Below are positions 12,474 through 29,315 of a DNA stretch of 64,000 bases, piece by piece. The DNA is from Methylocystis sp. MJC1. Its GTDB lineage: Bacteria > Pseudomonadota > Alphaproteobacteria > Rhizobiales > Beijerinckiaceae. Below the pieces are notes generated by a model. That model saw nothing but the letters and a program-made list of their open reading frames with translations, was not told the DNA's origin and did no database searches. Where the stretch lies: assembly GCF_026427715.1 (NCBI RefSeq), contig NZ_CP107558.1:3813001-3877000 (forward strand). Reading direction: 5' to 3'. The position numbers were made by a program, and so were the translations under genes. Each line of letters starts with the position of its first letter. Position 1 is the stretch's first letter.

Positions 12474-13355
12474 TTAATGCCCGGGCGCTGCGGCGCCTTT
12501 GAATTTTACCGGGACAAGAAGCCGGCGCACGCCATCGGGTCCCGGCGGCGGGAAGCGCCCAGCCCGGATATTGACTTGTATGGACGGCAGCAAAAGGCGG
12601 GGCGCCGCTAGCGCCTTGTCGCGTTTCTGGCGATCCGCAACGAACTCCTCTTCGCCCACCCCGTCCTTTATCTGCACGTTTTTCGCCCGCTCCTCGGCGA
12701 CCGTTGTCTCCCAACGATAGAAATCACGGCCTGGCGCCTTGTAGTCGTGGCACATGAAGAGCCGCGTCTCGGGCGGCAGGGCCAGCAGGCGGCGGATGGA
12801 CCGGTAAAGCGCGCGTGCGTCTCCCCCCGGGAAATCGGCGCGGGCGGTCCCGTAATCCGGCATGAACAGAGTGTCGCCGACGAAGACCGCGTCGCCGATC
12901 TTATAGGAGACGCAGGCGGGCGTATGTCCCGGCGTATACATGACCTCTATGTCGAGCCCGCCCAGCGGCAGGCGGTCGCCGTCCTTGAACAGGCGGTCGA
13001 AATCGCGGCCCGCGGGGGCGATGTCGTCGGCCAAAAATACCGGGCGGAATATCTCCTGGACCGCGACGATATGCTCGCCGACCCCGACTTTCGCGCCGGT
13101 GGCGGCTTTCACGACCGGCGCCGCCGAGAGATGGTCGGCATGAGCATGGGTTTCGAGCACCCACGCGACGGTCAAGCCTTCTTCGCGCGCGACCGACAAG
13201 ACCGTATCGATCGAACGGGTGTCGGCAACTCCGCCGCCCGGCTCGAAATCGAGCACAGGGTCGATAATCGCGGCCAATTTGGTCGCTGGATCGGAAACGA
13301 GATAGGTGATGGTGAAGGTGGCTTCGTCGAAGAAGCCCCTGATCGTCGCCGACAT
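12474..13355 (-). CDS. blh: Metallo-beta-lactamase-fold persulfide dioxygenase-like hydrolase (Blh/ETHE1 type)
   Basis: A 293-residue MBL-fold protein. The metal-binding motif HAHADH is at residues 70-75, with further ligands in YTPGHTPACVSY, VFVGDTLF and FMCHDY. This set matches the Blh/persulfide-dioxygenase (ETHE1-like) group, which oxidises glutathione persulfide to sulfite. The start is the ATG at 13355; the longer reading would cross the operator at 13401. It is divergent from a TauE-type exporter, reproducing the blh-sulfite exporter pairing known from BigR-controlled operons. The last residues are rich in Arg/Pro/Gly. No rhodanese domain is fused here; a separate rhodanese lies at 28239. 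Confidence 0.85.
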   Translation of the reverse strand: MSATIRGFFDEATFTITYLVSDPATKLAAIIDPVLDFEPGGGVADTRSIDTVLSVAREEGLTVAWVLETHAHADHLSAAPVVKAATGAKVGVGEHIVAVQEIFRPVFLADDIAPAGRDFDRLFKDGDRLPLGGLDIEVMYTPGHTPACVSYKIGDAVFVGDTLFMPDYGTARADFPGGDARALYRSIRRLLALPPETRLFMCHDYKAPGRDFYRWETTVAEERAKNVQIKDGVGEEEFVADRQKRDKALAAPRLLLPSIQVNIRAGRFPPPGPDGVRRLLVPVKFKGAAAPGH

Positions 13356-13400
13356 GTTTTCTCTCCGTCGCGCGCTTGCTTGCCGCAACGATATATGCAA

Positions 13401-13429
13401 CTTATCTAAATAAGCAATATCTAATGTTG
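13401..13429. promoter_or_regulatory. BigR/SqrR-like operator between blh and the sulfite exporter
   Basis: CTTATCTAAATAAG (13401-13414) is a near-palindrome followed by CAATATCTAATG, a second TATCTAA half-site. Near-identical sequences precede the sqr gene (22081), the bigR-like gene (23407) and the RND operon (23536). Consensus seen here: TATCTAAATTAGCAA. Binding by the ArsR-type regulator at 23056-23406 is inferred. Confidence 0.65.
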
Positions 13430-13447
13430 TGATCCAGAGGATCGCCG

Positions 13448-14236
13448 ATGCTGACGCCCTTTGTGATGAAACTCGCCGCCGGCACGCTGTCCGGCGTCTT
13501 CGTCGGCTTTACGCTCGGACTCATCGGCGGCGGCGGCTCGGTCCTCGCCGTGCCGCTTCTCGTCTATTTCGTCGGCGTGCCGGAGCCGCATATCGCCATC
13601 GGCACGAGTTCCGTCGCTGTGTCGGTCAACGCTGTCTTCAACCTCGTCAACCACGCCCGATCGGGCGCGATCAAATGGCGCTGCGCATCGGTCTTCGCCC
13701 TTTTCGGCGCGCTCGGCGCCTTCGTGGGCTCGACCCTCGGCAAGCTTATCAATGGTGAGAAGCTCCTCGCTCTCTTCGGCCTTTTGATGCTCGTCGTCGG
13801 CGCGCTGATGTTCCTCAATCGCCGTGGGCAGGGGCATCCTCAAGTGCGGCTGAGCCGCGAAAATTTCCCGCGCCTCGCCGCAACGGGCGCCGCGACCGGC
13901 GCGCTTTCCGGGTTCTTCGGCGTCGGCGGCGGTTTTCTGATCGTTCCGGCCCTCATGTTCGCAGCCAATCTGCCGATCCTCAACGCGATCGGCTCCTCGC
14001 TTGTTTCGGTCACGGCCTTCGGCGTGACGACGGCGGTCAATTACGCGGCCTCCGGCCTCGTCGACTGGGCGCTCGCCGGCGGGATCCTCGGCGGCGGCGT
14101 CATCGGCGGCATGATCGGCGCGGCGACCGCGCGCCGCCTTTCCGCCCAGCGCGGCACGCTGGCGACGGCCTTTGCGGGAATCGTCGTCACTGTTGCGCTT
14201 TACGTTATCTGGCGGTCGGTCGGGGCGCTGACGTAA
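13448..14236 (+). CDS. Sulfite/sulfur-anion exporter, TauE/SafE family
   Basis: A 262-residue inner-membrane protein with about eight hydrophobic segments in two related halves, each beginning with the family's glycine-rich turn: GFTLGLIGGGGSVLAVPLL and SGFFGVGGGFLIVPAL. TauE/SafE proteins move sulfite, sulfoacetate or similar anions. Next to a persulfide dioxygenase, whose product is sulfite, export of sulfite is the natural reading. GAGG stands 8 bases before the ATG. The gene diverges from blh, and both promoters face the operator at 13401-13429. Confidence 0.88.
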   Translation: MLTPFVMKLAAGTLSGVFVGFTLGLIGGGGSVLAVPLLVYFVGVPEPHIAIGTSSVAVSVNAVFNLVNHARSGAIKWRCASVFALFGALGAFVGSTLGKLINGEKLLALFGLLMLVVGALMFLNRRGQGHPQVRLSRENFPRLAATGAATGALSGFFGVGGGFLIVPALMFAANLPILNAIGSSLVSVTAFGVTTAVNYAASGLVDWALAGGILGGGVIGGMIGAATARRLSAQRGTLATAFAGIVVTVALYVIWRSVGALT

Positions 14237-15016
14237 TCAGCGCAGCTCCCCAAAAATCGCCACATGGTCGGAGGGCTTCTCCCCCGCCCGCATTGCCTTG
14301 ACGATCTCGACCCCCGTCAGCCGGTCGGCGGCCTGCGGCGAGAGCAGCAGGTGGTCGATGCGGATGCCCTTGTTCTTCTGCCAGGCGCCCGCCTGATAGT
14401 CCCAGAAGGTGTAAAGCCCCGCGTCGTCGGTGACGGCGCGGAGCGCGTCCGCATAGCCAAGGTTCAGGAGCCGCCGATAGGCCTTGCGGCTCTGCGGCAG
14501 GAACAGCGCGTCGCTTGCCCAGGCGGCCGGGTCATAGACGTCGCAAGCCTCCGGGATGATGTTGTAATCGCCCGCGAGCACCGTCGCCTCCTCGAGCTGC
14601 AGGAGCGCAGCGGCGTGGCGCGTCAGCGCCTCCATGAAGGCGAGCTTATAGTCGTATTTGGGCGTGTCCGCCGGATTGCCGTTGGGCGCATAAATGCTCG
14701 CGACGCGCAGGGCCCCGCCATCGTGGGAGATCACCGCCTCGATGTAGCGCGACTGCCCTTCGTGGTCGAAATCGGGAAGCCCGACGCGCGATTCCTCGAT
14801 CGGATGTTTGGAGAGGATCGCCACCCCGTTGAAGGTCTTCTGCCCATGCAGAATGACATTATAGCCCGCGTCTTCGACCTCCATGCGCGGGAAGGCGTTT
14901 TCCTCGCATTTGAGCTCCTGCAGGCAGAGGACGTCCGGCGTGGTCTCCTTCAAAAAGGACAGAAGCGGCGTGAGCCGCTGCCGGACGGAATTCACGTTCC
15001 AAGTCGCGATGCGCAA
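14237..15016 (-). CDS. xth: Exodeoxyribonuclease III
   Basis: Repairs apurinic/apyrimidinic sites and removes 3' blocks from DNA. 259 residues, the usual length. Family motifs: N-terminal MRIATWNVNSVRQRL, metal-ligand LCLQELKCEE, the IYAPNG and GDYNIIPE motifs, and the C-terminal RIDHLLLS and SDHVAIFGEL with the catalytic Asp-His. It ends exactly where the convergent exporter gene ends (14236/14237). The neighbourhood gives no special role. Confidence 0.96.
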   Translation of the reverse strand: MRIATWNVNSVRQRLTPLLSFLKETTPDVLCLQELKCEENAFPRMEVEDAGYNVILHGQKTFNGVAILSKHPIEESRVGLPDFDHEGQSRYIEAVISHDGGALRVASIYAPNGNPADTPKYDYKLAFMEALTRHAAALLQLEEATVLAGDYNIIPEACDVYDPAAWASDALFLPQSRKAYRRLLNLGYADALRAVTDDAGLYTFWDYQAGAWQKNKGIRIDHLLLSPQAADRLTGVEIVKAMRAGEKPSDHVAIFGELR

Positions 15017-15058
15017 AAAGAGGCTCCCGCTAGTGCGAGGCGCGCCTCGCTCATTCGT

Positions 15059-15577
15059 TCATTGCAGCCGATAGGCGGCGTGACATGCGTTGCAGGCTTG
15101 CACGACCTGGCTCAGCTCGGCAAGCGCGGGACGCGGATCGCCGCCCTGCTTCAACTTTGCCGCCTCTTCGGCAAATTTCGACGCCTGCGCATGCATGGCC
15201 ATGCCGAGCCCCTGCATGGCTTCCGGCATATGGCTCGCCATCATCATCGGCATCTCGCCGAGACCGCCAGATTTTGCGTTCGGCTTGCAGGCGGCCGAAC
15301 CCGGCGAGCCCATGCCGAGCCGCGTCTCGGCGATTTTCGCCGCGCCCTCGCCGTCGCTTTTGGCGAGCGCCGCCAGAATTTCCGCGACCGTCTGCTGATG
15401 CCCGCGCATATTCGTGAGCATATGCGCCTTCATCGGCGGCGGCATGTCGACCTCGATGCGCGTGTCCTTCGCCATCTTCGACATCATCTGCATGTGATCG
15501 TGATGATCCTGCGCCGTGGCGCCGGCGGCGAGAAGCGACAGGCCGCAAATCATTGCAACAGGGAACAGAACCCGCAT
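15059..15577 (-). CDS. Periplasmic cytochrome c-556/c'-like protein, methionine- and histidine-rich
   Basis: A 172-residue exported protein: signal peptide MRVLFPVAMICGLSLLAAGA, then DHHDHMQMM, and a predicted four-helix body with the haem motif CNACH close to the C-terminus, as in the class II cytochrome c'/c-556 family. The many Met and His residues (MQMMSKMAKD, GEMPMMMASHM) are unusual and suggest copper contact. Start at 15577, with GGGGAG 7 bases upstream. It lies downstream of the copper-type HMA fusion gene and in the same direction, so it may belong to the same transcript. Confidence 0.7.
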   Translation of the reverse strand: MRVLFPVAMICGLSLLAAGATAQDHHDHMQMMSKMAKDTRIEVDMPPPMKAHMLTNMRGHQQTVAEILAALAKSDGEGAAKIAETRLGMGSPGSAACKPNAKSGGLGEMPMMMASHMPEAMQGLGMAMHAQASKFAEEAAKLKQGGDPRPALAELSQVVQACNACHAAYRLQ

Positions 15578-15643
15578 CTCATTTCTCCCCACTCGAATGG
15601 CTGAGCCTAGCGTGCTTTGTCGAAGACGCGCCAGAGCAAATTG

Positions 15644-17230
15644 TCATGGCCGCGCTTTTGGCGGCAGTGTCAGAACCTGACCCCGTTTCAGTCTCCCGAC
15701 ATGCACGCCCGGATTGGCCGCGGCGATCTCGCGCCAGCGCGCGACATTGCCATATTTTTTCTTCGCGATGCGCATCAGCGTATCGCCGCGCTGGACGACA
15801 TATGTTTCGACAGGCGCCGGCGCCGGTTCCGCCTCCACCGGGCAAGCCGCAGAGGGCGGCGCGGCTTCTTTCGGCGCCGGCGGCGGCGCGCCGGGCTCGA
15901 CCACGTCGAATTCGCCGCGAATCATGCCCATCCAGCAGCTCCACGGAATCAGGCCCGCATTCTGTGGCGTGAAGTCGATGGTCTGGAGCCCGGGCTTCAA
16001 ATCGAATTCGAGGCCAAGGGCGGGGACGACAATGCGATGATTGCACTGCGTGATCCGCGTGGCGTTGATCACCCATTTGACCGGCGCGCCGCGAATGAGC
16101 GTGAAGCGGGAAGGCGCATAACCGAGCGCATTCGCCTCCATCTCGATGGTCTGCACGGCGCGCGCGGGCGGCGGGGCGCTCGTTGCGATCGGCGCGTCGC
16201 TTTGCTGCATCTGCGCCACGATCGAGCCGAGATCGACGCCCCAGCCTGTTAGTATCAGCCCGCGGTTGATCATCACCGCGCCCAGCGCGACGACGATCAC
16301 GCCCGAGGATTTCAGCAGGCGATGCGTCAGCGCATTCGAGAGCATCGAGGCGATGACGCCGAAGGCGAGCATGACCGGCAGCGTGCCAAGCCCGAAAGCC
16401 AGGAGCATTTTTGCGCCTTCGATGGCGCTGCCGGTTCCGGCCGCCATCACATACATCGCCTGCAAAGGGCCGCAGGCGATCATCAAGCCATTGAGGAGCC
16501 CGATGACAAAGGGGCGATGCCGTCCGTTCGCTTCACGATGTACCCAACGTTCGAGCGGCGCCGGCAGGGAAAGGCGAAAGCGCCGCAGCGGCGCGAACAG
16601 GCCCAGCATGTTGAGCCCGAAGATGATGAGAAAGGCCCCCGCCGCCATGCCCGCCACGCCCCGCAGCAGCGGCGTGAAAGCGATGATCGCGCCCAGCGCG
16701 CCGAAGGCGGCGCCGATCGCTGTATAGGAGAGCGTCTTGCCGGCGCCGAAAGCGAGATGCGAAAGGCGCGACGAGCGGTTGGCGCGCGCATCCGCGGTCG
16801 TATAGCTCACCACGAAGGCGCCGCACATGCCGATGCAGTGGAAGCCCGTCACGAGCCCGAGCAGGAAGATAAGCCAGAGGCTCATATGCTGCGCAATGTC
16901 GGGAGAGCCGTGAGCGCTGATCCATTTGGTGTCGATGTAGATCAGACCTGCGAGACCGACGGCGGCCACGGCAAACAATGCTAGCCGCTGCAGCAGCGGC
17001 TTTTCGCGCCGCTCGCCTAATTCGACGCGATAGCCATTTTCCTCGACGCTCTCATAGATCGCGTCGAGGCCGACCGCCTGAGGGTCGAAGTCGACTGTAA
17101 CGGTTTCGGTTGGATAGCTGGCGACGGCGCGGCGCACGCCAGGAAGTCTTCGCAGACTCCTTTCGATAATATGCTCGCACCCATGACAGTGCATGCCATG
17201 GGCGCGAAAAATAACCGTCTCATCGCCCAA
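15644..17230 (-). CDS. Four-part fusion: HMA metal-binding domain, UreH/TauE-type membrane domain, cupredoxin-like domain, LysM
   Basis: 528 residues in one frame. Residues 1-75: a heavy-metal-associated domain with the copper-type motif GMHCHGC (C15, C18). About 85-325: a multi-span membrane domain of the UreH_2/TauE-SafE type (GLVTGFHCIGMCGAFVVSY, GLLNGLMIACGPLQAMY). About 350-440: a periplasmic cupredoxin-like domain with candidate copper ligands in CNHRIVV and WSCWMGM. Residues 477-528: a LysM peptidoglycan-binding motif (YVVQRGDTLMRIAKKKYG). HMA-UreH_2-cupredoxin proteins are known and linked to copper handling; a terminal LysM is unusual in my experience. Same strand as the cyd genes upstream; possibly delivers copper in the periplasm. 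The copper role is inferred from the domains. Confidence 0.85.
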   Translation of the reverse strand: MGDETVIFRAHGMHCHGCEHIIERSLRRLPGVRRAVASYPTETVTVDFDPQAVGLDAIYESVEENGYRVELGERREKPLLQRLALFAVAAVGLAGLIYIDTKWISAHGSPDIAQHMSLWLIFLLGLVTGFHCIGMCGAFVVSYTTADARANRSSRLSHLAFGAGKTLSYTAIGAAFGALGAIIAFTPLLRGVAGMAAGAFLIIFGLNMLGLFAPLRRFRLSLPAPLERWVHREANGRHRPFVIGLLNGLMIACGPLQAMYVMAAGTGSAIEGAKMLLAFGLGTLPVMLAFGVIASMLSNALTHRLLKSSGVIVVALGAVMINRGLILTGWGVDLGSIVAQMQQSDAPIATSAPPPARAVQTIEMEANALGYAPSRFTLIRGAPVKWVINATRITQCNHRIVVPALGLEFDLKPGLQTIDFTPQNAGLIPWSCWMGMIRGEFDVVEPGAPPPAPKEAAPPSAACPVEAEPAPAPVETYVVQRGDTLMRIAKKKYGNVARWREIAAANPGVHVGRLKRGQVLTLPPKARP

Positions 17231-17269
17231 GATCCACGCCTCGCCGCCGGCGTCGATTGAAACGAATTG

Positions 17270-17455
17270 CTATTTGCCGAGCGTATTCATGCCCAGAAGT
17301 TTATAGGCTGGACAGAAATTGATGAAGGCGGTTGCGAGAGGCACGAGTCCGATGAAGCCCCAAGCCGTCTTCGGACCGATAAAGGCGAGACTGAGCAGCA
17401 CCAGCCCTGCAACGATACGGATGATTTTATCCGTCTGGCCGATATTCGCTTCCAT
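17270..17455 (-). CDS. DUF2892 small membrane protein (YgaP transmembrane-domain family)
   Basis: A 61-residue protein starting MEANIGQTDKIIRIVAG, with two hydrophobic helices and the family's GFCP-like turn (FINFCPAYKLLG). DUF2892 is the membrane part of the YgaP rhodanese and often occurs alone beside sulfur genes. The start is the ATG at 17455, after GGGAGGG. It follows cydX by about 100 bases on the same strand. A second DUF2892 gene is at 22844. Confidence 0.85.
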   Translation of the reverse strand: MEANIGQTDKIIRIVAGLVLLSLAFIGPKTAWGFIGLVPLATAFINFCPAYKLLGMNTLGK

Positions 17456-17555
17456 CACGACCCTCCCTTGGTGTTGTGCCCCAAAAGATATGCGTCGCCG
17501 CGGCCATTGCCATCAGCGACTTTGTCGCCAAAAGGCCGCGGCGCATCGTCGCGCG

Positions 17556-17660: not shown

Positions 17661-17673
17661 GCCGTCTCTCCCT

Positions 17674-18810
17674 TCAGTAATAGTGATCGTCGCCTTTTTC
17701 GATCGCCGCCTCGCGCACCGCGCCGCGCAACACCCAATAGACCCATGAGGTATAGGTAAGCACGATCGGCAGGAAGAAGAGGGCTACGACGAGCATGAGC
17801 CCGAGCGTGGCCTGGCTCGACGACGAATCCCACACGGTCAGGCTCTCGCCCGGATGCGAAGAAGATGGCAGCAGGAAGGGAAACAGGCTGAAGCCCGCCG
17901 TCGTCACGACGCCTGCGACAGAGACGCTCGACGCCAAGATCGCGAGCGGCGAACCGATCGCCAGCAGGATCGCGGCGCCGAGCGCGCCGAGAAGGGCGGC
18001 AAGGGGCGCGAGCGCGGCAAGCGGAAACCGCGCATAATTGAGAAGCCACTCGCCGGCGCCGGCCACGACCGTCTTGCCGAAGGGGTTCGACGGGCCGGCG
18101 TAATTGACGTCCGACTCGATTCGATAGCCTTCGATTCCGGTGGCGATCCAGAGCCCTCCCGCCAGAAGCAGTAGTACGAGCGCCAGGGCGGCGGCGGCGG
18201 CGATACCGCGCGCCCGAGCGCTAATCTCGCCCTCGGTCTTGCCCGCGAGCCAGGCGGCCCCTTGCATGAACAGCATCACCACGCTCACAAGTCCGCAGAG
18301 CAGCGCGAAGGGGCGCAGCAGGCCGAGAAGGTCGCCCTCATATTGGAAGCGCAGCGACGGATCGAAATGGAAGGGGACGCCCAGCAGCAGATTGCCGAAA
18401 GCGACGCCAAACAACACCGACGGCAAGGCGCCCGAGACGAAAAAGAGCCAGTCCCATGTCGCGCGCCAGAGCGGCTCCTCCCGCTTGCTGCGGAAGGTGA
18501 TGGAGACGGGCCTTAGAATGAAGCCGATCAGCACCAGCAACATCGCGAGATAGAAGCCGGAGAAGGAGGCGGCGTAGAGCGGCGGCCAGGCGGCGAAGAT
18601 CGCGCCGCCGCCCAGAATGAACCAGACCTGATTGCCTTCCCACACCGGGCCGATCGTGTTGATCAACACGCGGCGCTCGACATCCTTCTTCGCCACGAAG
18701 GGGTGCAGCATAGCGACGCCGAGGTCGAAGCCGTCGAAGATGGCGAAGCCGACGAGCAGCACGCCGAGGAGCGCCCACCAGATGAAGCGCAGGGTCGCAT
18801 AATCGAACAT
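17674..18810 (-). CDS. cydB: Cytochrome bd ubiquinol oxidase subunit II
   Basis: Pairs with CydA in the membrane to oxidise quinol with oxygen. 378 residues with about nine membrane helices. Starts MFDYATLRFIWWALLGVLLVG; family motifs FDGFDLGVAMLHPF, NTIGPVWEGNQVWFILGGGA and a C-terminal YTSWVYWVLRG. It starts 12 bases after the cydA stop and is followed by cydX. Cytochrome bd tolerates sulfide better than haem-copper oxidases in organisms where this was tested, which suits its position between sulfide genes. Confidence 0.97.
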   Translation of the reverse strand: MFDYATLRFIWWALLGVLLVGFAIFDGFDLGVAMLHPFVAKKDVERRVLINTIGPVWEGNQVWFILGGGAIFAAWPPLYAASFSGFYLAMLLVLIGFILRPVSITFRSKREEPLWRATWDWLFFVSGALPSVLFGVAFGNLLLGVPFHFDPSLRFQYEGDLLGLLRPFALLCGLVSVVMLFMQGAAWLAGKTEGEISARARGIAAAAALALVLLLLAGGLWIATGIEGYRIESDVNYAGPSNPFGKTVVAGAGEWLLNYARFPLAALAPLAALLGALGAAILLAIGSPLAILASSVSVAGVVTTAGFSLFPFLLPSSSHPGESLTVWDSSSSQATLGLMLVVALFFLPIVLTYTSWVYWVLRGAVREAAIEKGDDHYY

Positions 18811-18822
18811 GTGGCGTTCCTT

Positions 18823-20397
18823 TTAGCGCGAGGCGTCGAAGGCGGGCTGCGCTTCCGGAAGCGCGCCGGCAAGCGGCGGGGATGCCGGCGCGGGATGCGG
18901 TCCCTTGCGGATATATTTGACGAGCAACCCTACATCGACCGCCGCAAGCGCCGTGTAGAAGATGACGAAAGCCGCGAGGCTCGCCGCGACATTGGAGGCG
19001 GGCACGCTCGACACGCCGACGAAGGTCGGCATCACGCCGTCGATGATCCAGGGCTGGCGGCCATATTCGGCGACGATCCAGCCGAGCTCGGCGGCGATCC
19101 AAGGCAGGGGCAGGCTGAACATGGTGAGCCGCAGAAACCACGGCTGGCCGCAGCGCCGCTGGCTCGACAGATAGAAGGCGACGCCGAAGAGCACGATGAA
19201 ATAGAAGCCCAGCGCCACCATGATGCGGAAGGACCAGAAGAGGACCGGCACATCGGGGATGGTCGAGAGCGCCGCCTGCTTGATCTCGTCCTCGGTGGCG
19301 TTCTCGATGTCCGGGCGGATGCGCTTGAGCAGCAGCGAATGGCCGACGTCGCGCATCGAGCCTTCGAGCTGCGGCGGCACGGAAACGCCAACGCGGCCGC
19401 CTTGCTCGGTCATCCATTTATAACCGGGAAGTCCGTTGCGGATGCGCGCCGCATTGTGCTCGACAAGCGGCTTGATGCCTTCGACGGGTTTGTCGAAGGA
19501 GCGCGTCGCGATAAGGCCCAGGACATAGGGGATTTCGACCGCATATTTGGTCGTCTGGGTCTGGAGATCGGGCAGGCCGAAGAGCGTGAAGGAAGCCGGT
19601 GCGGGCTCCGTCTCCCACATCGCCTCGATGGCGGCGATTTTCATCTTCTGGTTTTCACCCGCCGTATAGCCGCTCTCGTCGCCGAGCACGACGACCGACA
19701 AGGCTGACGCAAGACCGAAGCTCGCGGCGACAGTCAGCGAGCGGCGTGCGATTTCGACGTGCTTCTTGCGTAGGATGTAATAGGCGCCGATCGACATGAC
19801 GAACATGGAGCCGGTCACATAGCCGGCGCTGACCGTATGGACGAATTTCGATTGCGCCACCGGATTGAACATCACTTCGAAGAAAGAGCTGAGCTCCATG
19901 CGCATCGTCTGCGGATTGAAGGCGGCGCCGACGGGATTGGACATCCAGGCGTTGGCGATAAGAATCCAGAGCGCCGAGAAGTTGGAGCCGAACGCGACGA
20001 GCCAGGTGACGAGAAGGTGTTGCACCTTGGTGAGACGCTTCCAGCCGAAGAAGAAGAGGCCGACGAAAGTCGCCTCCAGGAAGAAGGCCATCAGCCCTTC
20101 GATGGCGAGCGGCGCGCCGAAAATATCGCCGACATAGTGGGAGTAATAGGCCCAGTTCGTTCCGAACTGGAATTCCATCGTGATGCCGGTGGCGACGCCC
20201 ATCACGAAATTGATGCCGAAGAGCGTCCCCCAGAATTTGACCGCGTCCCGCCAGATCTCGCGCCCCGTCATCACATAGACGCTCTCCATGATGGCGAGCA
20301 GCAAGGTGAGACCCAAAGTGAGCGGCACAAAGAGAAAGTGGTATAGGGCCGTCAGCGCGAATTGCAGACGGGAAAGTGTGACGACGTCAAAGTCCAT
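18823..20397 (-). CDS. cydA: Cytochrome bd ubiquinol oxidase subunit I
   Basis: Carries the three haems and the quinol-binding loop. 524 residues from the ATG at 20397 (MDFDVVTLSRLQFALTALYH, where H20 fits the haem b595 ligand). Other marks: GTLFGINFVMGVATGITMEFQFGTNW, the GRQPW motif near YGRQPWIIDG, and the QKMKIAA segment of the quinol loop. The loop looks longer than in the short-loop CydA of Gram-positives. A reading starting 24 bases earlier lacks a ribosome site. Operon order is cydP-cydA-cydB-cydX. Confidence 0.97.
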   Translation of the reverse strand: MDFDVVTLSRLQFALTALYHFLFVPLTLGLTLLLAIMESVYVMTGREIWRDAVKFWGTLFGINFVMGVATGITMEFQFGTNWAYYSHYVGDIFGAPLAIEGLMAFFLEATFVGLFFFGWKRLTKVQHLLVTWLVAFGSNFSALWILIANAWMSNPVGAAFNPQTMRMELSSFFEVMFNPVAQSKFVHTVSAGYVTGSMFVMSIGAYYILRKKHVEIARRSLTVAASFGLASALSVVVLGDESGYTAGENQKMKIAAIEAMWETEPAPASFTLFGLPDLQTQTTKYAVEIPYVLGLIATRSFDKPVEGIKPLVEHNAARIRNGLPGYKWMTEQGGRVGVSVPPQLEGSMRDVGHSLLLKRIRPDIENATEDEIKQAALSTIPDVPVLFWSFRIMVALGFYFIVLFGVAFYLSSQRRCGQPWFLRLTMFSLPLPWIAAELGWIVAEYGRQPWIIDGVMPTFVGVSSVPASNVAASLAAFVIFYTALAAVDVGLLVKYIRKGPHPAPASPPLAGALPEAQPAFDASR

Positions 20398-20522
20398 TGC
20401 GACTGTCCTGCTTTGGCGCAAGCCCGCCGGAAAAGGGACACGTCCCTCCGGTCAGAGCCTGCTCGGCACCCTTGCGAGGTCTCTTGGCTCATGGAAGCGA
20501 TGAGACACCGCAAAATTCGAGT

Positions 20523-20748: not shown

Positions 20749-22029
20749 TCAGAGAACGCGGCGCAAGCGTTCGATTCCGATCAGCTTCATGATGTAGCGT
20801 TCGTAAACCGGCTCGCTTTGTCCGTTACGCACCTTACGCAAGAAGTATTTCTCATATGCGACTTTCGCCCAGTGCACCCAACGACCCTGGCTCGACCAGT
20901 TGACGTTGCGCGGCGGGATTTGCGGCTGAGCGACGAAGGCGACGCCGCGATCGCCGAAATCGGCGAGGCAAACGGCGTTCCATGTGCCTTCTTCCTTCGG
21001 CTCTTTGCCGTTGATGACCGCCGCAATGTTGTGCGCGGTCGCCGTCACCATTGATTCGATCATATAACCCGTTTTGGGCATGCCTGTCGCAACAGGCGTC
21101 GGTTCCGCCGGCGGGATGGCGACGCAGACGCCGACGCCGAAGACGTTCTTGAAGGTCGGATTGCGCTGGTTCTTGTCGATGACGACGAAACCGCGCGGGT
21201 TGACGAGACCTTCGATTCCCATCAGCGCGTCGATGCCCGTGAAGGCCGGCATCATCATCGCGAATTTGAAGGGAAGCTCGTGTTCTTTCTTCAACGAGCC
21301 GTCGTCGTTCAACTCCTGGCATTTGAGGACGCCCGGCTCCACCGAGGTGGTCTTCGCGTTAGTGATCCATTTGACGTCACGATCGCGGAAAGCGGACTCG
21401 AGCATGCCCTTGGTGTCGCCGACGCCGCCGAGGCCCAGATGGCCGATATAGGGCTCCGACGTCACGAAAGTGATCGGCACCTTATGGCGGATGCCGCGCT
21501 TGCGCAGGTCTGACACAAGGATCATTGCATATTCGTAAGCGGGCCCGAAACAGGAAACAGCGGGAGACGCGCCGACGACGATTGGTCCGGGATCCGCGCA
21601 GAATTCTTCCCAGGCCTTCGACGCGATTTCGGCGTGCTGCAGCGTGCAGATCGAATGCGTATGGCCGCCATGCGGGCCGAGCCCCGGGATTTCTGAGAAG
21701 GCGAGCTTGGGCCCCGTCGCGATGACGAGATAGTCATAGGAAATGCTCTCGCCATTATTGAGCTCGATGCGGTTCTCCGCTGGATGCACGCGCTTGGCGC
21801 CGGCATCCGTGAAGCCGATGTTCTTTTTCTTGAACACGGGCGCGAGCGGCACCTTCAATTCCTCGGGCTTGCGCCAATTGACCGCGAGCCAGGGATTTGA
21901 CGGCGTGAATTGAAAGTTCGGCAAATCGGAAACGACAGTGACCTTGTGCTCCTTCTTCAAGGATTCGCGCACTTCGATCGCTGCCGCGACGCCGCCGATT
22001 CCGGCGCCGAGAACCACCACGTGAGCCAT
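20749..22029 (-). CDS. sqr: Sulfide:quinone oxidoreductase, type I
   Basis: A membrane-associated flavoprotein that oxidises sulfide to zero-valent sulfur or persulfide and passes electrons to quinone. 426 residues from the ATG at 22029, with GGGAGG 7 bases upstream. N-terminal FAD motif VVVLGAGIGGVAAAIE, second nucleotide motif YLVIATGPKLAF. The three catalytic cysteines are at C128 (HSICTLQHA), C160 (VSCFGPAYEYA) and C354 (NAVCLADFGDRG), nearly the positions known for A. ferrooxidans SQR (128, 160, 356). A BigR-like operator lies upstream. The electrons could feed the neighbouring cytochrome bd; the persulfide would go to Blh and the rhodanese. Confidence 0.95.
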   Translation of the reverse strand: MAHVVVLGAGIGGVAAAIEVRESLKKEHKVTVVSDLPNFQFTPSNPWLAVNWRKPEELKVPLAPVFKKKNIGFTDAGAKRVHPAENRIELNNGESISYDYLVIATGPKLAFSEIPGLGPHGGHTHSICTLQHAEIASKAWEEFCADPGPIVVGASPAVSCFGPAYEYAMILVSDLRKRGIRHKVPITFVTSEPYIGHLGLGGVGDTKGMLESAFRDRDVKWITNAKTTSVEPGVLKCQELNDDGSLKKEHELPFKFAMMMPAFTGIDALMGIEGLVNPRGFVVIDKNQRNPTFKNVFGVGVCVAIPPAEPTPVATGMPKTGYMIESMVTATAHNIAAVINGKEPKEEGTWNAVCLADFGDRGVAFVAQPQIPPRNVNWSSQGRWVHWAKVAYEKYFLRKVRNGQSEPVYERYIMKLIGIERLRRVL

Positions 22030-22047
22030 CTGACATCCTCCCATAGT

Positions 22048-22064: not shown

Positions 22065-22080
22065 CGCTCGTTATATTCGA

Positions 22081-22097
22081 ACTATCTAAATTAGGAG
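22081..22097. promoter_or_regulatory. BigR/SqrR-like operator upstream of sqr
   Basis: ACTATCTAAATTAGGAG matches the sites at 13401, 23407 and 23536. It lies 52 bases upstream of the sqr start. A possible -10 (TATAAC on the minus strand) follows 7 bases further towards the gene, so a repressor here would block the promoter. Confidence 0.6.
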
Positions 22098-22111
22098 ATG
22101 CTCACAGCGAC

Positions 22112-22780
22112 TTAGTCACGCTCGGCATCGCAAAGCGCGCGCAAGGCCCCTGCGTCGGTGATTTCTGTTCCTCCGCGCGATAGTTTGACCCAGCCCGAAC
22201 GTTCGAAAGTCTTGAGTGTGCGCCCCACAACTTCCCGCGCCGTTCCGAGATCGGCCGCGAGCGCCTGCTGCGTGACGCAAATGCGATTGTCTACGCCGCG
22301 CAAGGCGAGCAGCCGCTCGGCGAGCCGCACATTGATGCGCGTGCAGACGATCTCTTCGATGCGGCACATCAGCGTGGCGATGCGGCGGCTGTAGCCGTCG
22401 AAAACCAGCGCGCGAAAGCCTTCCGAAGCATTCATCAAGGCGGCGAAGCGCTCGGCCGGCACGATATAAGCGACGACATCCGTCTCGGCGACGCCTTCCG
22501 CCGCATAAGCGTCGTCGGAGAGCAGCGAAGCGGTCGTGAGAATGCAGGTCTCATTGGTCGAGACGCGGTAGAGCACGATCTCGCGCCCCGACTCAGTGAC
22601 GCGCTGGACGCGGACGGTTCCCGAGACGATCAAGGGAAACTGTACGCATTGGTCGCCGGGACGGAAAAGCACAGCGCCGCGCGGAATTTGCTTTCGGATG
22701 GCCGAGTCGCGCAGCATCGTCTTGGTCGACCCGTCGAGCGCGCGCAGGAGGGGGACATCCTCGATCCAGTCAGACGCCAT
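22112..22780 (-). CDS. Crp/Fnr-family transcriptional regulator
   Basis: A 222-residue regulator: N-terminal cyclic-nucleotide-binding-like beta-roll (about 15-130; PRGAVLFRPGDQC, FPLIVSGTVRV), then a dimer helix and a C-terminal helix-turn-helix (VTQQALAADLGTAREVVGRTLKTFER). The Fnr-type iron-sulfur cysteine cluster is absent from the N-terminus. There are scattered cysteines (C45, and others near CRIEEIVC) that could sense redox or sulfur species. It lies between a DUF2892 gene and sqr, so control of sulfide or respiration genes is likely; the ligand is unknown. Confidence 0.88.
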   Translation of the reverse strand: MASDWIEDVPLLRALDGSTKTMLRDSAIRKQIPRGAVLFRPGDQCVQFPLIVSGTVRVQRVTESGREIVLYRVSTNETCILTTASLLSDDAYAAEGVAETDVVAYIVPAERFAALMNASEGFRALVFDGYSRRIATLMCRIEEIVCTRINVRLAERLLALRGVDNRICVTQQALAADLGTAREVVGRTLKTFERSGWVKLSRGGTEITDAGALRALCDAERD

Positions 22781-22843: not shown

Positions 22844-23056
22844 TCAGAAGGCCGATCCCGGTCTTACGCCGATGCGCTTGAGTATCAAGGCCAAAGGGCA
22901 AAAGCCGGTAAAAGAGGCCTGCAACATATTCGCCCCGACGAAAGCGGCGAGCGCCATCCACCAGGGCGAAAACAGATAAGCCAGCGTTACGCTCGACAGC
23001 ACCATCGCGCCGGCGACAGCCATGACCATTCGATCGACGTTCATGGAACGCTCCAT
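22844..23056 (-). CDS. DUF2892 small membrane protein (second copy)
   Basis: A 70-residue YgaP-type membrane domain: [20 protein letters not shown], two hydrophobic helices, and the family's [14 protein letters not shown] turn, with a cysteine at the membrane face. Its ATG shares one base with the stop of the bigR-like gene (TGATG), so the two are coupled. DUF2892 proteins accompany rhodaneses and persulfide sensors; here the rhodanese is a separate gene at 28239. Confidence 0.88.
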
Positions 23057-23406
23057 CAGTTGCGCGCCCGCGGGCGCTTCTTAGGTCGGCTCCGCGCATT
23101 GCATTCGTCCGCGCAGAACAATTCGTAAAGCAAGCCGATAAAACGAGAGACGTTTTCATCGGCGAGCGAATAGAAGATCGACTGTGACTCGCGGCGCGTT
23201 TTCACGAGCTTGTCATCACGCAGCCGGGCGAGATGCTGCGAGAGAGAGGACTGGCTGAGGCCAATCGTCTCCTGGAGCTTGTTCACCGACAGCTCGCCCT
23301 TGTGCAATTCGCACAGGACCATGAGCCGGTGGCGATTGGCGAGAGCCTTCAAGAAGCTTTCAGCCTCTTCGGCTTTTGGCGCGAGGTCTGCCGGATTTAT
23401 ATTCAT
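23056..23406 (-). CDS. bigR: ArsR-family persulfide-sensing repressor, BigR/SqrR type
   Basis: A 116-residue winged-helix repressor. The recognition helix is [16 protein letters not shown]. Two cysteines, C32 ([10 protein letters not shown]) and C98 (ELFCADE), are 66 residues apart, the exact spacing of the redox pair in BigR (C42/C108) and SqrR (C41/C107), which form a persulfide bridge and release DNA. C102 is an extra nearby cysteine. The start MNINPADL (23406) is preferred, because the longer reading begins inside the -35 element. The -10 ends 7 bases before this ATG, so the message may be leaderless. Own operator at 23407-23422; coupled DUF2892 gene downstream. Confidence 0.88.
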
Positions 23407-23442
23407 AGTGACTAAATTAAGTTTGACGAATATAAGTGTCAA
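23407..23442 (-). promoter_or_regulatory. Promoter with overlapping BigR-like operator, bigR gene
   Basis: On the minus strand TTGACA (23437-23442) and TAATTT (23414-23419) are 17 bases apart, a near-consensus promoter. The -10 lies within TAGTGACTAAATTAAG (23407-23422, plus-strand text), one of four related operators. The layout predicts autorepression. Confidence 0.7.
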
Positions 23443-23535
23443 GCATCAAATCCTCATGGCCCGCTCGTGCTACATTCGCCGAGCGGGATCGGGTCGTTCC
23501 GAATGAAGCGGCAACGCAGCAGTTTTTAAATTCGT

Positions 23536-23554
23536 ACTTGCTAATTTACATATA
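23536..23554. promoter_or_regulatory. BigR-like operator upstream of the RND operon
   Basis: ACTTGCTAATTTACATATA reads on the other strand as TATATGTAAATTAGCAAGT, close to the site at 13401 (TATCTAAATAAGCAATAT). It lies 39 bases before the adaptor start codon in an AT-rich promoter-like stretch. It suggests that the pump operon shares the persulfide regulator. Confidence 0.55.
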
Positions 23555-23592
23555 TCGAATATATCTGGATGCGTCAGCGTGGGAGACTTCTC

Positions 23593-24561
23593 ATGAATCG
23601 CTTCCGACTCGCTTTTCTTTTAGCCGCCCTGGCCTCGCCGTCCGCAGCCTGGGCGGGCGAAACGGCCGTCCGCCTTGCGCCGATCGACGATATGAAGGCG
23701 GTCGTCGCTTCTGTCGAACCCGCGCACCAACTCATGGCCCGAGCCCGCATTGGCGGCACGGTGACGACGCTCAAGATCAAGGAAGGCGACACGGTGGCCG
23801 CCGGGGCCGAGATTGCGCTCGTCGCCGACCAAAAGCTTTTTCTGCAAATGCAGTCGCTCGATCAGCGCATTCGCGCCCAGCAGGCGCAGCGCGACAAGGC
23901 TCAGAGCGACTTCGACCGCGCGCAAGAGCTTCTGCGCCGCGGCACCTCAACCAAGGTCATGTTCGATCAGGCCAAGACCGCGCTCGACGTCGCAGAGCGC
24001 AATCTCGCCGCGCTGCAATCCGACCGCGGCGTGATCGAGCAGCAGACGGCGGAAGGCTCGGTGAAGGCGCCGGGCGCCGGCCGCATTCTGACCATCCCCG
24101 TCTCCGTCGGCCGTGTGGTGATGCCCGGCGAAACGATCGCGACTCTCGCCGAGAACAATTACATCCTGCGCCTGCAATTGCCGGAGCGCCACGCCCGCTT
24201 CATGCGCGCCGGCGATCGCGTCGAGATCGGCGAACGCGGCGTCAACACCGGCGCCGGCGCCCGCAAGGAAGGGCGCGTGCGCATCGTCTATCCTGAGATT
24301 CAAGGCGGCCGCGTGATCGCCGACGTCGACGTGAAGGGGCTGGATAATTATTTCGTCGGCGAGCGCGCCCGCGTCTATGTGACGACCGGCAAGCGCGACA
24401 CGATCCTCGCACCGAAATCCGCCGTCTATCGGCGCGCCGGCGTCGACTTCGTTCGCCTCGCGGACGGCGCCGAAGTGGTCGTGCAGACCGGCGACGCGCA
24501 TGGCGAGACGATCGAGATTCTCACGGGTCTCCATGACGGCGATGTGGTGCACACGCCATGA
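23593..24561 (+). CDS. RND efflux periplasmic adaptor (membrane fusion protein)
   Basis: A 322-residue adaptor. Signal peptide MNRFRLAFLLAALASPSAAWAG; lipoyl-like halves flanking a short coiled-coil hairpin (about residues 85-135, RAQQAQRDKAQSDFDRAQEL), then beta-barrel domains. The family motif GGTVTTLKIKEGDTVAAG marks the first lipoyl half. It is shorter than AcrA-type adaptors (about 380-400). Start at 23593 after GGGAG, 39 bases beyond a BigR-like operator. It overlaps the pump gene by 4 bases. No TolC-type outer-membrane gene is in the cluster. Confidence 0.9.
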   Translation: MNRFRLAFLLAALASPSAAWAGETAVRLAPIDDMKAVVASVEPAHQLMARARIGGTVTTLKIKEGDTVAAGAEIALVADQKLFLQMQSLDQRIRAQQAQRDKAQSDFDRAQELLRRGTSTKVMFDQAKTALDVAERNLAALQSDRGVIEQQTAEGSVKAPGAGRILTIPVSVGRVVMPGETIATLAENNYILRLQLPERHARFMRAGDRVEIGERGVNTGAGARKEGRVRIVYPEIQGGRVIADVDVKGLDNYFVGERARVYVTTGKRDTILAPKSAVYRRAGVDFVRLADGAEVVVQTGDAHGETIEILTGLHDGDVVHTP

Positions 24562-27500: not shown

Positions 27501-27836
27501 TTCATCGCGCTTGCCGGCATCGTCGTGCGCAACTCGATCCTGCTCGTCGACTTCATCCGCCATCTGCGCGAGCGCGGCATGTCGCTACGCGAAGCTTTGG
27601 TCGAGGCGGGCGCGGTGCGCTTCAAGCCGATCTTCCTCACCGCCGCGGCGGCGATCATTGGCGCGGCCTTCATTCTCACCGACCCGATCTTCCAAGGTCT
27701 CGCGATCTCGCTCGTCTTCGGCCTCGCGTCCTCGACGGCGCTGACGCTGCTCGTGATCCCCGCCATCTATGTCGTCCTGCGCGACGACCAACGCCCAGCG
27801 GCGCCGAACGCGCCGGAAGGAGGGAAGCTCGCATGA
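24558..27836 (+). CDS. RND-family inner-membrane efflux pump
   Basis: A 1,092-residue pump of the AcrB/Mex superfamily with twelve expected membrane helices and two large periplasmic loops. TM1 is near residues 30-50 (LTPLLLLASILVGLIAL), followed by LPREEEPQISVPMVDI. The proton-relay aspartates of TM4 are in GILVDDAIVVVENI (about 424-437), and TM10 carries a family-typical segment near ALAGIVVRNSILLVDFI. A histidine-containing cytosolic loop (GGAGHDHSHERGAMG, about 530) is unusual. It is flanked by 4-base overlaps with the adaptor and the AhpD-like gene, so the four downstream genes act as one unit. Substrate unknown; the setting suggests sulfur species or thiol conjugates. Confidence 0.93.
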   Translation: MSQEKENAKQFHPGISGTLTRTFINSPLTPLLLLASILVGLIALQALPREEEPQISVPMVDIIVQANGYKAEDAIELITRPLEDIIKGVNGVEHVYSQTRDDQVMVTARFFVGTPQDNAVLRVHDKIRANILDLPKGIPEPVIIGRGIDDVAIVVLTLSAKPERANGWTDNGLYQVAEELQHDLTKVENVGLSYIVGGSPNQIRVEADPERLSQYGVTLNQLIDKLTNANRSFMVGAFREDNHSIPVVAGQTLQGVPDIGLLLLTTRDGRPVYVKDVANVIVGAAEPDKRSWTMTKEKDGELLKRPAVSIAIAKRKGANAVIVAEDVLHRLESVKGRIVPEDLEIAVTRNYGETATEKANELLFHLALATVSIVLLIVVMVGWREGVVVFVIIPTTILLTLFASWLMGYTINRVSLFALIFSIGILVDDAIVVVENIVRHWQMRGSRSLIDTAVEAVAEVGNPTIVATMTIIAALLPMMFVSGLMGPYMSPIPANASLAMVFSFFVAMTITPWLLLKIAGKRFEQEGGAGHDHSHERGAMGNFYARIATPLLQGRKRSQRFLTAVGVATLLSLGLFATKSVRVKLLPFDNKSEVAVVVDLPRGASLEETDRVLTAAAERLKDIPELTSIQSYAGAAAPFNFNGLVRHYYVRSAPEMGDLAINLLPKDERKRASHPIALEIREKLKGLPMPEHTAIKVVEVPPGPPVLSTLLAEVYGPDAQTRRDLATKLRKAFDAVDFVVDTDDSFGQRAERLRFAIDQEALEYHGVEERAVYDTIGALVGGVKIGFSQRGGGAKPIDITVALPHAQMTPGERILSTPLPAGGTVRQGANVELGDVVKATRELGSYPIFRHNGRFAEMVSAEVAGRFEAPIYGMFAVEDEINKIDWGPSGAPTIKYHGQPLDDAKPTFLWDGEWEVTYVTFRDMGAAFMVALLGIYLLVVAQFGSFKLPLVILAPVPLTLLGIVLGHLLFNAAFTATSMIGFIALAGIVVRNSILLVDFIRHLRERGMSLREALVEAGAVRFKPIFLTAAAAIIGAAFILTDPIFQGLAISLVFGLASSTALTLLVIPAIYVVLRDDQRPAAPNAPEGGKLA

Positions 27837-28216
27837 CCAATGATTGGCCCGAACTCGCCAAGGCGCTCTCTGCCGATCTTCGCAATCTGCGCGTCGGCGC
27901 GCCCGACGTGATGAAGACCTTCTCCGCCATGGCGACGACCGCCGGCGCGCCCGGCGCGCTCGACGCCAAGACGAAGGAGCTGATCGCCGTCGCCGTGAGC
28001 GTCGCGGTGCGCTGCGACGATTGCATCGCCTTCCACACGAAGGCCGCCGCCCAGCGCGGCGCGACGCGCGAGGAGATTTTGGAGACGCTCGGCATGGCGA
28101 TCTACATGGGGGCCGGCCCCTCGGTGATGTACGCGAGCCATGCGCTTTCGGCTTTCAACCAATTTGCCGGCGGCGAAGCCGCCAGCGCGCAAGCCCCTCA
28201 AGCCCAGACCGCTTGA
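27833..28216 (+). CDS. Carboxymuconolactone decarboxylase / AhpD-like protein
   Basis: A 127-residue all-helical protein of the CMD/AhpD fold with the redox motif RCDDCIAFHTKAA: a C-x2-C pair followed by the conserved His four residues later, as in AhpD proteins that reduce peroxidases or act as small disulfide reductases. The start ATG overlaps the pump stop by 4 bases (27833-27836). In a sulfur cluster it may reduce per- or disulfides; this is inference. The C-terminal AQAPQAQTA tail is variable. Confidence 0.9.
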   Translation: MTNDWPELAKALSADLRNLRVGAPDVMKTFSAMATTAGAPGALDAKTKELIAVAVSVAVRCDDCIAFHTKAAAQRGATREEILETLGMAIYMGAGPSVMYASHALSAFNQFAGGEAASAQAPQAQTA

Positions 28217-28238
28217 GCAAGAAGAAAGGAAGAAGAAA

Positions 28239-28583
28239 ATGCTGTCAGGCCTGATGTCCAAGCTCACCGGGGGCGGCGGCGAATTACCGACGATCGAGCA
28301 CGAGGATTTCGCCCGCCTCGTGAAGGAAGGCTCCTGCGCCATCGTGGATGTGCGCGAGCCGCATGAATATGCCGCCGGCCATGTGCCGGGCGCACGCAAT
28401 CTGCCGCTCTCGCAATTCGATCCGTCGAAGCTGCCGGCGGGCGATTGCGTGATCATCTGCCAGGCGGGCGGCCGCTCGGCCAAGGCGCTGGGGCAGGCGA
28501 TCCAGGCCGGCCGCAAGAATGTGCGCCACTATGCGCCGGGCACCGGCGGCTGGCGCGCGCGCGGCGGCGCGGTGCAGGCGTAA
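28239..28583 (+). CDS. Single-domain rhodanese sulfurtransferase
   Basis: A 114-residue rhodanese. Start MLSGLMSKL at 28239, after the A-rich GGAAGAAGAAA. N-terminal VDVREPHEYAAGHVPGARN (family VDVR-E--E---GHI-GA-N), active-site loop CQAGGRS with the persulfide-carrying cysteine at about residue 75, and GGWRARG near the end. It is the last gene of the RND operon, 22 bases after the AhpD-like gene. It is a natural acceptor for persulfide from SQR, handing it to Blh or a thiol. Confidence 0.94.
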   Translation: MLSGLMSKLTGGGGELPTIEHEDFARLVKEGSCAIVDVREPHEYAAGHVPGARNLPLSQFDPSKLPAGDCVIICQAGGRSAKALGQAIQAGRKNVRHYAPGTGGWRARGGAVQA

Positions 28584-28589
28584 CGCGGT

Positions 28590-28711
28590 TCCCCTTCCCC
28601 AACCCTCCCCCGCTTCGCGGGAGAGGGAGCAGATCGAGGCCTTCATACCCAGTGCTGGTCATGAGCATCCCCTCTCCCGCGTCAGCGGGGGAGGGACAGG
28701 GAGGGGGCCGG
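28590..28711. repeat. Two GC-rich hairpins of a CCCTCTCCC-type dispersed repeat
   Basis: CCCTCCCCCGCTTCGCGGGAG... and CCCCTCTCCCGCGTCAGCGGGG (within 28590-28630 and 28666-28711) are inverted relatives of each other. Repeats of the 'CTCTCCCGC..GCGGGAGAG' kind are common between genes in Alphaproteobacteria. They probably end the convergent transcripts on both sides. Confidence 0.55.
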
Positions 28712-28727
28712 CTTAGATTACCTGATA

Positions 28728-29315
28728 TCAGGCGGCGCGGCCGATTTCGGTCGCCCTGGACACTTCGTTCAGCTTGCCGGTCTTCACGTCATAGATATAG
28801 CCGTAGATCGGTATGTTCTTCGGAACCAGCGGATGCGAGCGGATGCGCGCGACGTCCTGGGCGACGCTCTCCTCCTGGTTCTTGATCGTGTGCCATTTAA
28901 TGAAATGACCCGCCGAGCAGCCGCCGCCATGCTGCGGGTTCGACCATTTCAACGTCGCCATGTCGAGTGCGGCCGTCGCGAGGTTGTCGTCGAGGAGCTC
29001 GCTCATCACCTCGTCGCAGAAAAGCTCCATGCCGCAATTGGTGTGATGGATCACGAACCACTCATTCGTGCCGAGCAGCTTGTGGGAAATGACCAGCGAA
29101 CGAATCGCGTCGTCGGACGCGCGGCCACCGGCGTTGCGGATCACATGGGCGTCGCCTTCGGAAAGGCCCGCATATTTCGCCGGGTCGAGACGCGCATCCA
29201 TGCAGGTCAGAATCGCGAAACCGCGCGCCGGCGGCAAAGCGAGATCGCCCTTCGAGCCGAAGCCCGATACATAAGCCGCATTGGCGGACAAAACTTCGTC
29301 GACGATCTTGCTCAT
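28728..29315 (-). CDS. Beta-carbonic anhydrase of the type D / CS2-COS hydrolase clade
   Basis: A 195-residue beta-class carbonic anhydrase: zinc ligands in CMDARLDP and HTNCGM, with HVIRNAGGR between them. The pattern ([24 protein letters not shown], and the C-terminal [13 protein letters not shown]) resembles M. tuberculosis Rv1284 and the clade that also contains CS2 hydrolase and carbonyl sulfide hydrolase. An insert with an extra cysteine ([13 protein letters not shown]) near residue 125 is not usual. Start at 29315, with GGGAG 6 bases upstream. It adjoins the sulfur operon tail to tail. Hydration of CO2 is the default; a COS/CS2 activity is a hypothesis. Confidence 0.85.

Follow-up and report, generated by a model that had tools for sequence, protein, structure and literature searches.

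An RND pump operon of Methylocystis as a probable member of a BigR-type repressor regulon and a candidate exporter of reactive sulfur

A stretch of 64,000 nucleotides from Methylocystis sp. MJC1 (contig NZ_CP107558.1, positions 3,813,001 to 3,877,000 of the forward strand; hereafter the window) carries the gene of an ArsR-family repressor (bigR) and, divergent from it, an operon encoding a periplasmic adaptor, an RND pump, an AhpD-like protein and a rhodanese. A first-pass annotation had proposed that this operon shares an operator with genes for sulfide oxidation and sulfite export. Our comparative analysis supports the proposal and suggests that the pump operon very probably belongs to the regulon of the BigR-type repressor: the operator is rare in the genome, it is conserved in the genus, it is retained in a genome where the pump operon is unlinked to bigR (G031), and across the class the pump shows a linkage to sulfur genes that is not seen for control pumps. 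Given membership of the regulon, we infer that the pump may export reactive sulfur compounds, to which we assign slightly less than an even chance. For the other suggestion of the first-pass annotation, that the pump senses cell damage, the analysis showed no evidence. The 4.54-Mb genome, assembled in four contigs, contains three matches to the AMO/pmoA family, and the organism is therefore considered a methanotroph.

An operator of three half-sites ahead of bigR and the pump operon

As derived from the promoters of relatives, the operator consists of half-sites at 15-bp steps, TAWATTC-N8-TAAWTTA-N8-GAATWTA. It was found complete ahead of the pump operon and of bigR, where the first nine bases of the operator (23398..23434) are the start of bigR, and the sites upstream of sqr and between blh and tauE each agree with it at 16 of the 21 specified positions (Table 1). 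The recognition form published for Rhodobacter capsulatus SqrR is ATTC-N8-GAAT, and a similar sequence is present where Escherichia coli YgaV binds (PMC9774250). At the promoter of bigR itself this form was encountered as a variant, with ATTC-N8-TAAW units that overlap and an array that ends in GAAT. Given the published form, the window operator is, as judged from its sequence, a doubled version of the known SqrR operator.

The first-pass annotation had named four sites in the window, described by a 15-mer. Operators do lie at all four places, but the 15-mer matches only three of them (at up to three mismatches; shuffled versions gave a mean of 0.21), and it misses the site at 23407 because it is not the operator unit. 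As it also covers only part of the array, the 15-mer was rejected as the operator.

To assess rarity, patterns that had been written after the sites were seen were run against the complete genome. Allowing up to three mismatches, the triple pattern occurred at exactly two places, the bigR and pump promoters, and its reversed control at none; the chance-level frequency that the first-pass annotation had regarded as fatal to its proposal was thus not observed. With the two-half-site pattern, all six perfect matches lay within the four sites, and three further places matched with one mismatch. One of these (G000:C1:2759071-2759092) lies about 1.3 kb upstream of the pmoA-family match at 2760422; it is probably due to chance, since the reversed control also gives three matches genome-wide.

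A profile model (R1) was then built from 27 distinct sites (33 kept) of other species, leaving out the window genome and its 98% sibling G030; the pump promoters of L072 and L074, with scores under 11, were not used. When 150 of 390 first-look candidates in the window genome were scored, only three matches were obtained at E≤10, at the promoters of the pump (22 bits, E 0.001), bigR (19.2 bits, E 0.009) and sqr (13.8 bits, E 0.49). Across 18 genomes of the genus, 59 of 60 matches at E≤2 fell, by their coordinates, at the bigR, pump or sqr loci or at the expected blh/tauE place, the single match elsewhere being G006:C1:4295718. Thirteen of these genomes had supplied training sites; the five that had not (G003, G004, G005, G015, G030) accounted for 22 of the 60 matches, none of them elsewhere.

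A promoter scan of 23300-23650 returned nothing that would fit the pump or bigR promoter, its sole promoter-like site (plus strand, 23376-23403) lying inside the start of bigR. When read by eye, the half-sites likely overlap the -35 and -10 elements.

Conservation of the operator and of pump-bigR linkage in the genus

The genus set comprised 37 genomes, of which 30 contain the pump and 29 contain bigR (called at E≤1e-20). Both genes were found in 29 genomes and neither in seven; in the one discordant genome (G010) the pump lies 672 bases from a contig start. Of the seven that lack the pair, G002 is 99% and G007 98% complete, making joint loss possible there, and the other five are 64-81% complete. 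For 19 of the pump-bearing genomes the neighbourhood was retrieved: bigR accompanied the pump in 18 stretches, sqr in 17, and the AhpD-like and rhodanese genes in 18.

At least 17 of the 21 operator positions were matched at 17 of 19 pump promoters, all 18 bigR promoters, 7 of 9 tauE promoters and 3 of 17 sqr promoters. Pump and bigR have a single site in common at four loci (L083, L084, L085, L100). Two loci (L072, L074) have a pump without its own operator, but the pump is located downstream of bigR-ygaP-crp-sqr-cydA-cydB in the same orientation. The pump operon of G031 (L075) is separated from bigR by 3.2 Mb, and its operator is nonetheless perfect; with its own site out of training, this operator was the top match of the 20-kb stretch, scoring 41.3 where the next distinct place scored 3.7. 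Conservation does not extend to an operator at sqr: by matrix score, a strong site of its own was present at only 5 of the 17 sqr promoters in the genus. Because of this scarcity, sqr may often be transcribed from the bigR promoter.

Linkage of the pump to sulfur genes outside the genus

The association counts given above and below ignore relatedness, except in the tree test. Named alphaproteobacterial loci were the best 80 of 593 confirmed matches rather than a random sample; they include metagenome-assembled genomes and belong to Bradyrhizobium, Mesorhizobium, Azospirillum, Thioclava, Novosphingobium and others. Near the pump in these 80 loci we observed ygaP in 55, bigR in 49, sqr in 31, rhodanese in 16 and the AhpD-like gene in 8. 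The grouping of the AhpD-like and rhodanese genes with the pump that the first-pass annotation had described therefore stands for the genus and not as a general unit, and both genes are for the most part additions at the level of the genus.

Of 192 alphaproteobacterial genomes sampled evenly across the class, 18 contained the pump, 10 a sulfide:quinone oxidoreductase (SQR) of the window type and 8 both. Setting the window genome aside, the pump was present in 7 of 9 SQR genomes versus 10 of 182 others (Fisher p 4e-7, uncorrected for kinship). The 17 pump loci of this sample had ygaP nearby in 13 cases, bigR in 10, sqr in 6 and rhodanese in 4, compared with 0, 1, 0 and 0 for 20 other RND pumps of the same 17 genomes. 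Absence of linkage between homologous pumps and sulfur genes, which the first-pass annotation had offered as evidence that would count against its idea, was accordingly not what we found.

The genus matrix was also applied to 102 loci outside the genus, after dropping L173, which shares its contig with L089, and a further locus that has no upstream window. For 71 of the 102 the top operator match of the stretch preceded a regulon gene, whereas 200 column-shuffled matrices gave a mean of 37 and a maximum of 56 on the same loci, and the mean top score was 15.2 for the true matrix versus 9.0 for the shuffled ones. AT-richness as the whole cause of these matches was therefore rejected, though it accounts for about half of them. 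An expectation based on area only (3.8 of 104, versus 72 found) ignores base make-up and was not taken as a control.

A gene with the appearance of a TolC-type outer-membrane protein is situated some 5 kb ahead of the pump in L188 and seven other loci (8 of the best 80 of 593). Read from sequence and drawn from the gene clustering of the named loci, which is noisy and relies on simple open reading frame calling, this gene would make the pump tripartite there.

Properties of the repressor

The winged-helix domain of ArsR proteins was confirmed in BigR by Pfam HTH_5 (36.5 over a cut-off of 22) and NCBIfam HTH_metalloreg (89.1 over 55). Its nearest solved relatives have similar scores: HlyU (84.5 bits), the ArsR protein 13ct/6o8l (78.3), which we take to be SqrR, NolR (77.4) and the biofilm repressor 3pqj (74.6). 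The protein scored below the cut-off of the NCBIfam BigR equivalog NF040642 (96.5 versus 155 bits) and is therefore labelled SqrR/BigR/HlyU-type. The 66-residue spacing of C32 and C98 had been read correctly in the first pass; it equals that of Cys50 and Cys116 in sHdrR, and an additional cysteine is present at C102.

A second repressor of BigR type, 70% identical, is encoded at G000:C1:2982336-2982626 (L086:7220-7618). By open reading frame and sequence reading, it has cysteines at both equivalent places and sits between ABC-type genes. Second copies of this kind also occur in G030, G034, G008, G006, G024 and G020. The genome-wide search with R1 returned no operator at the second repressor.

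A distinct subfamily of RND pumps

Membership of the pump in the RND family is indicated by a match to ACR_tran over residues 20-1074 (486 bits) and by an operon adaptor that exceeds the RND_mfp cut-off. The paired aspartates of transmembrane helix 4, which form the proton path in such pumps, are represented by D428 and D429 and were invariant among 15 aligned pumps. All 15 NCBIfam models listed for the pump, multidrug or metal, gave scores below their cut-offs. In a phylum sample of 299 genomes, the identity of full-length pump matches dropped from 57% to 45% with nothing between, and by these comparisons the pump represents a distinct RND subfamily.

Sister pumps (34-45% identity) were represented by 60 loci hand-picked from a longer list, mostly of other classes, with two from the class or order of the window; 24 of these 60 loci are linked to bigR, ygaP or sqr. 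Zero cysteine was counted in 95 of 123 alphaproteobacterial orthologs, 21 of 60 sister pumps and 0 of 18 control pumps, two of the 20 controls being too short to include. All 24 linked sister pumps have at most one cysteine, and 26 of the 36 unlinked ones have two or more (Fisher p 0.0007, zero versus some). In a FastTree tree of 115 rows, 50 alphaproteobacterial pumps formed one clade, and 24 of the 26 unlinked multi-cysteine pumps, with 3-6 cysteines, formed another. We do not regard low cysteine content as a separate indicator of linkage to sulfur genes, since an independent-pairs test was not significant (median p 1, few independent events); the scarcity of cysteine is a clade-level trait. 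Linkage looks ancestral and lost in the 24-pump clade, although the node that joins that clade to the alphaproteobacterial one unites long branches and could be spurious. The clade of unlinked pumps (L233-L241, L253-L266, L271, with exceptions) offers a natural comparison set for substrate work.

Gene content of the locus

Open reading frame and family searches recovered every gene that the first-pass annotation had named. On the minus strand the order is bigR, ygaP-like (70 residues), a Crp-type regulator, sqr, cydA and cydB; on the plus strand the adaptor, pump, AhpD-like and rhodanese genes follow one another; and the persulfide dioxygenase and TauE genes, divergent from each other, lie about 9 kb past sqr. 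Overlap of starts and stops, reported for the whole operon, was confirmed for adaptor and pump (24558-24561) and for pump and AhpD-like gene (27833-27836), four bases each, but the rhodanese gene follows the AhpD-like gene after a gap of 22 bases. Likewise the assignment of blh holds for the dioxygenase part (positions 141-420 of 423 of the Blh model) and not for a full bifunctional Blh (NF040641), of which only this half is covered and whose cut-off is not reached (356.7 versus 625 bits); the structural relatives of the protein are PDB 9g8t, 4efz and 4ysk.

The Crp/Fnr-type regulator (22112-22780) is kept in most genus stretches and may bring a second signal to sqr and cydAB. Also present in most genus stretches is a 528-residue fusion protein (15644-17230) with heavy-metal, DsbD-like membrane and LysM domains and a weak cupredoxin match below cut-off.

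Table 1. Operators and genes of the putative regulon in the window
Feature	Position	Strand	Basis
Three-half-site operator, pump promoter	23527..23563	+	21/21 positions; best R1 match genome-wide
Three-half-site operator, bigR promoter	23398..23434	-	21/21 positions; second R1 match genome-wide
Two-half-site operator upstream of sqr	22072..22093	+	perfect two-half-site match; third R1 match genome-wide
Degenerate three-half-site operator between blh and tauE	13392..13428	+	16/21 positions; aligned in relatives
blh-like persulfide dioxygenase, metallo-beta-lactamase fold, without N-terminal sulfurtransferase half	12474..13355	-	Pfam Lactamase_B, NCBIfam Blh
TauE/SafE-type sulfite exporter	13448..14236	+	Pfam TauE 6e-51
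cydB, bd-type oxidase subunit II	17674..18810	-	Pfam
cydA, bd-type oxidase subunit I	18823..20421	-	Pfam
sqr, sulfide:quinone oxidoreductase	20749..22029	-	E 2e-151 versus solved sulfide-quinone reductase 3sz0
Crp/Fnr-type regulator between ygaP and sqr	22112..22780	-	Pfam cNMP_binding, HTH_Crp_2
YgaP-like transmembrane protein	22844..23056	-	Pfam YgaP-like_TM 7e-12
bigR, SqrR/BigR/HlyU-type ArsR repressor with C32 and C98	23056..23406	-	sequence, Pfam, NCBIfam, structure relatives
RND periplasmic adaptor	23593..24561	+	NCBIfam RND_mfp 117.8 versus cut-off 94.9
RND pump, 1,092 residues	24558..27836	+	Pfam ACR_tran 2e-145
AhpD-like protein, CxxCxxxH, carboxymuconolactone decarboxylase fold	27833..28216	+	Pfam CMD 1e-25; motif read from sequence
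Single-domain rhodanese, CxxGxR loop	28239..28583	+	Pfam Rhodanese 5e-15 (Pfam run from 28245); motif and start read from sequence

Proposed model and alternative explanations

We propose a model in which repressor dimers would cover the overlapping operators at the bigR and pump promoters, together with the weaker sites upstream of sqr and in the blh-tauE intergenic region. Per- and polysulfides would bridge C32 and C98, a step taken from the family, and the repressor would then leave the DNA; persulfide-driven release has been described for sulfane-sulfur ArsR repressors (PMC12423496, section 2.1; PMC9774250). Sulfide would be oxidised by SQR, whose electrons would pass to the bd oxidase; CydAB has been termed refractory to sulfide (PMC7315123). 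The dioxygenase would convert persulfide to sulfite, which TauE would export, and the RND pump, aided by the AhpD-like protein and the rhodanese, would clear the inner membrane or periplasm of polysulfide, elemental sulfur or organic persulfide. RND pumps draw substrates from these two compartments, so these three sulfur species would be natural cargo. The model as a whole, with regulon membership, persulfide-driven release and reactive-sulfur export combined, comes close to an even chance of being right while falling short of it. The broader suggestion, that a near-cysteine-free proteobacterial RND subfamily serves as the dedicated exporter of reactive sulfane sulfur and the efflux arm of the SqrR/BigR response, is possible but held with rather more reserve.

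Several observations weigh against this model. The operator between blh and tauE is weak (5.5 bits with R1, E 3.3 in the window) and is not among the genome-wide matches, and few sqr promoters in the genus have a strong site. No bigR was nearby in 7 of 17 class-sample pump loci, the second BigR-type repressor could bind the window operators, and the low cysteine content of the pumps shows no significant association with linkage when relatedness is taken into account. Moreover, 10 of the 18 class-sample pump genomes are without SQR of the window type; that the pump follows the BigR-YgaP module even there fits a role towards sulfane sulfur generally, beyond sulfide oxidation alone.

The principal rival accepts the same regulon with the pump as a general efflux system for harmful organic molecules (organosulfur compounds, thiol adducts, damaged lipids) that is induced along with sulfide defence as a precaution, and we regard it as doubtful but deserving of serious attention. 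Consistent with it, the best match of the pump is the multidrug RND model RND_permease_2 (419.8 bits), its nearest solved relatives are multidrug pumps, and it accompanies bigR and ygaP also where SQR of the window type is absent; yet the pump remains far under the multidrug model cut-offs (1250), shows only some 25% identity to the other RND pumps of its host genomes and differs from those in its linkage to sulfur genes. Export of thiophilic metal ions or their sulfide complexes, altered when sulfide appears, would also leave the regulon intact and is improbable. Although the adaptor matches CusB/HlyD and CzcB-type models and the CusA/CzcA model (247 bits) fits the pump about as well as the general efflux model 2A0602 (251), adaptor and pump are far under the metal cut-offs (86.8 of 319.3 and 247.3 of 701.45), the repressor is known to respond to sulfur species as ligands, and the window genes used as probes included no recurring metal gene, though no search was aimed at metal genes.

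It is about equally improbable that the pump operon escapes the repressor, with AT-rich sites that simply form part of normal promoters or are recognised by a different protein, such as the second BigR-type repressor, and a merely shared location. The overlap of the half-sites with likely promoter elements, the frequency with which shuffled AT-rich matrices match upstream windows and the existence of the second repressor would all suit this explanation. Against it, the true matrix exceeded every one of the 200 shuffled matrices, and the half-sites hold exact 15-bp steps, occur at bigR itself and fit the published SqrR form; the unlinked pump of G031, moreover, retains its site.

Under the reactive-sulfur model the pump represents a specific, conserved and testable candidate exporter of sulfane sulfur, governed by the same switch as sulfide oxidation in many culturable Alphaproteobacteria. 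Methanotrophs can encounter sulfide at places where methane escapes from anoxic mud, and the pump would serve there as a defence module. The three-half-site, 15-bp array also provides a clean system for how the SqrR/BigR repressor class reads DNA.

Comparison with known systems

The first-pass annotation had considered the RND link new. The idea is already partly in print, because a 2025 paper lists RND pumps among likely targets of sulfane-sulfur ArsR regulators (PMC12423496, section 2.1). A literature search, with the original SqrR/BigR regulon lists outside its scope, returned nothing on the operator array, on the subfamily of the pump or on its function in the portions of text available. 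Papers on persulfide sensing refer to reactive sulfur efflux in general terms and to TauE for sulfite or thiosulfate (PMC9995734, PMC10509353, PMC7315123), and in their available portions name no exporter of sulfane sulfur itself.

The closest parallels are SqrR of R. capsulatus and YgaV-YgaP of E. coli, which likewise rely on a two-cysteine ArsR repressor of sulfane sulfur and the operator ATTC-N8-GAAT. SqrR controls sqr, and YgaV controls its own gene and ygaP, the same kinds of target as in the window (PMC9774250). The window differs in its overlapping ATTC-N8-TAAW units, which make a three-half-site array, in a YgaP that is the membrane part only, with the rhodanese as a separate gene, and in an added RND pump operon; PMC9774250 contains no RND or efflux term. 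The BigR operons of Xylella, Agrobacterium and Acinetobacter also combine a cysteine-pair repressor with dioxygenase and membrane transport targets (yeeE-yedE-pdo2 in Acinetobacter; PMC7315123). In Acinetobacter, BigR is reported to control YeeE/YedE and a dioxygenase while SQR and TauE are under FisR (PMC7315123), whereas in the window sqr, tauE and the RND pump share one operator; unlike BigR in the narrow sense, the window repressor falls below the BigR equivalog cut-off. For sHdrR and SoxR of Hyphomicrobium denitrificans and relatives, likewise sulfane-sulfur ArsR repressors, the authors count RND pumps and TauE and YeeE transporters among the neighbours and likely targets, and section 2.1 of that paper devotes one general sentence to RND pumps, without a pump operator, subfamily or function (PMC12423496). 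With the AcrB/MexB/MdtB-type and CusA/CzcA-type RND pumps the window pump has in common the ACR_tran family and an adaptor in the operon; unlike them, it represents a separate subfamily, mostly cysteine-less and linked to sulfur genes.

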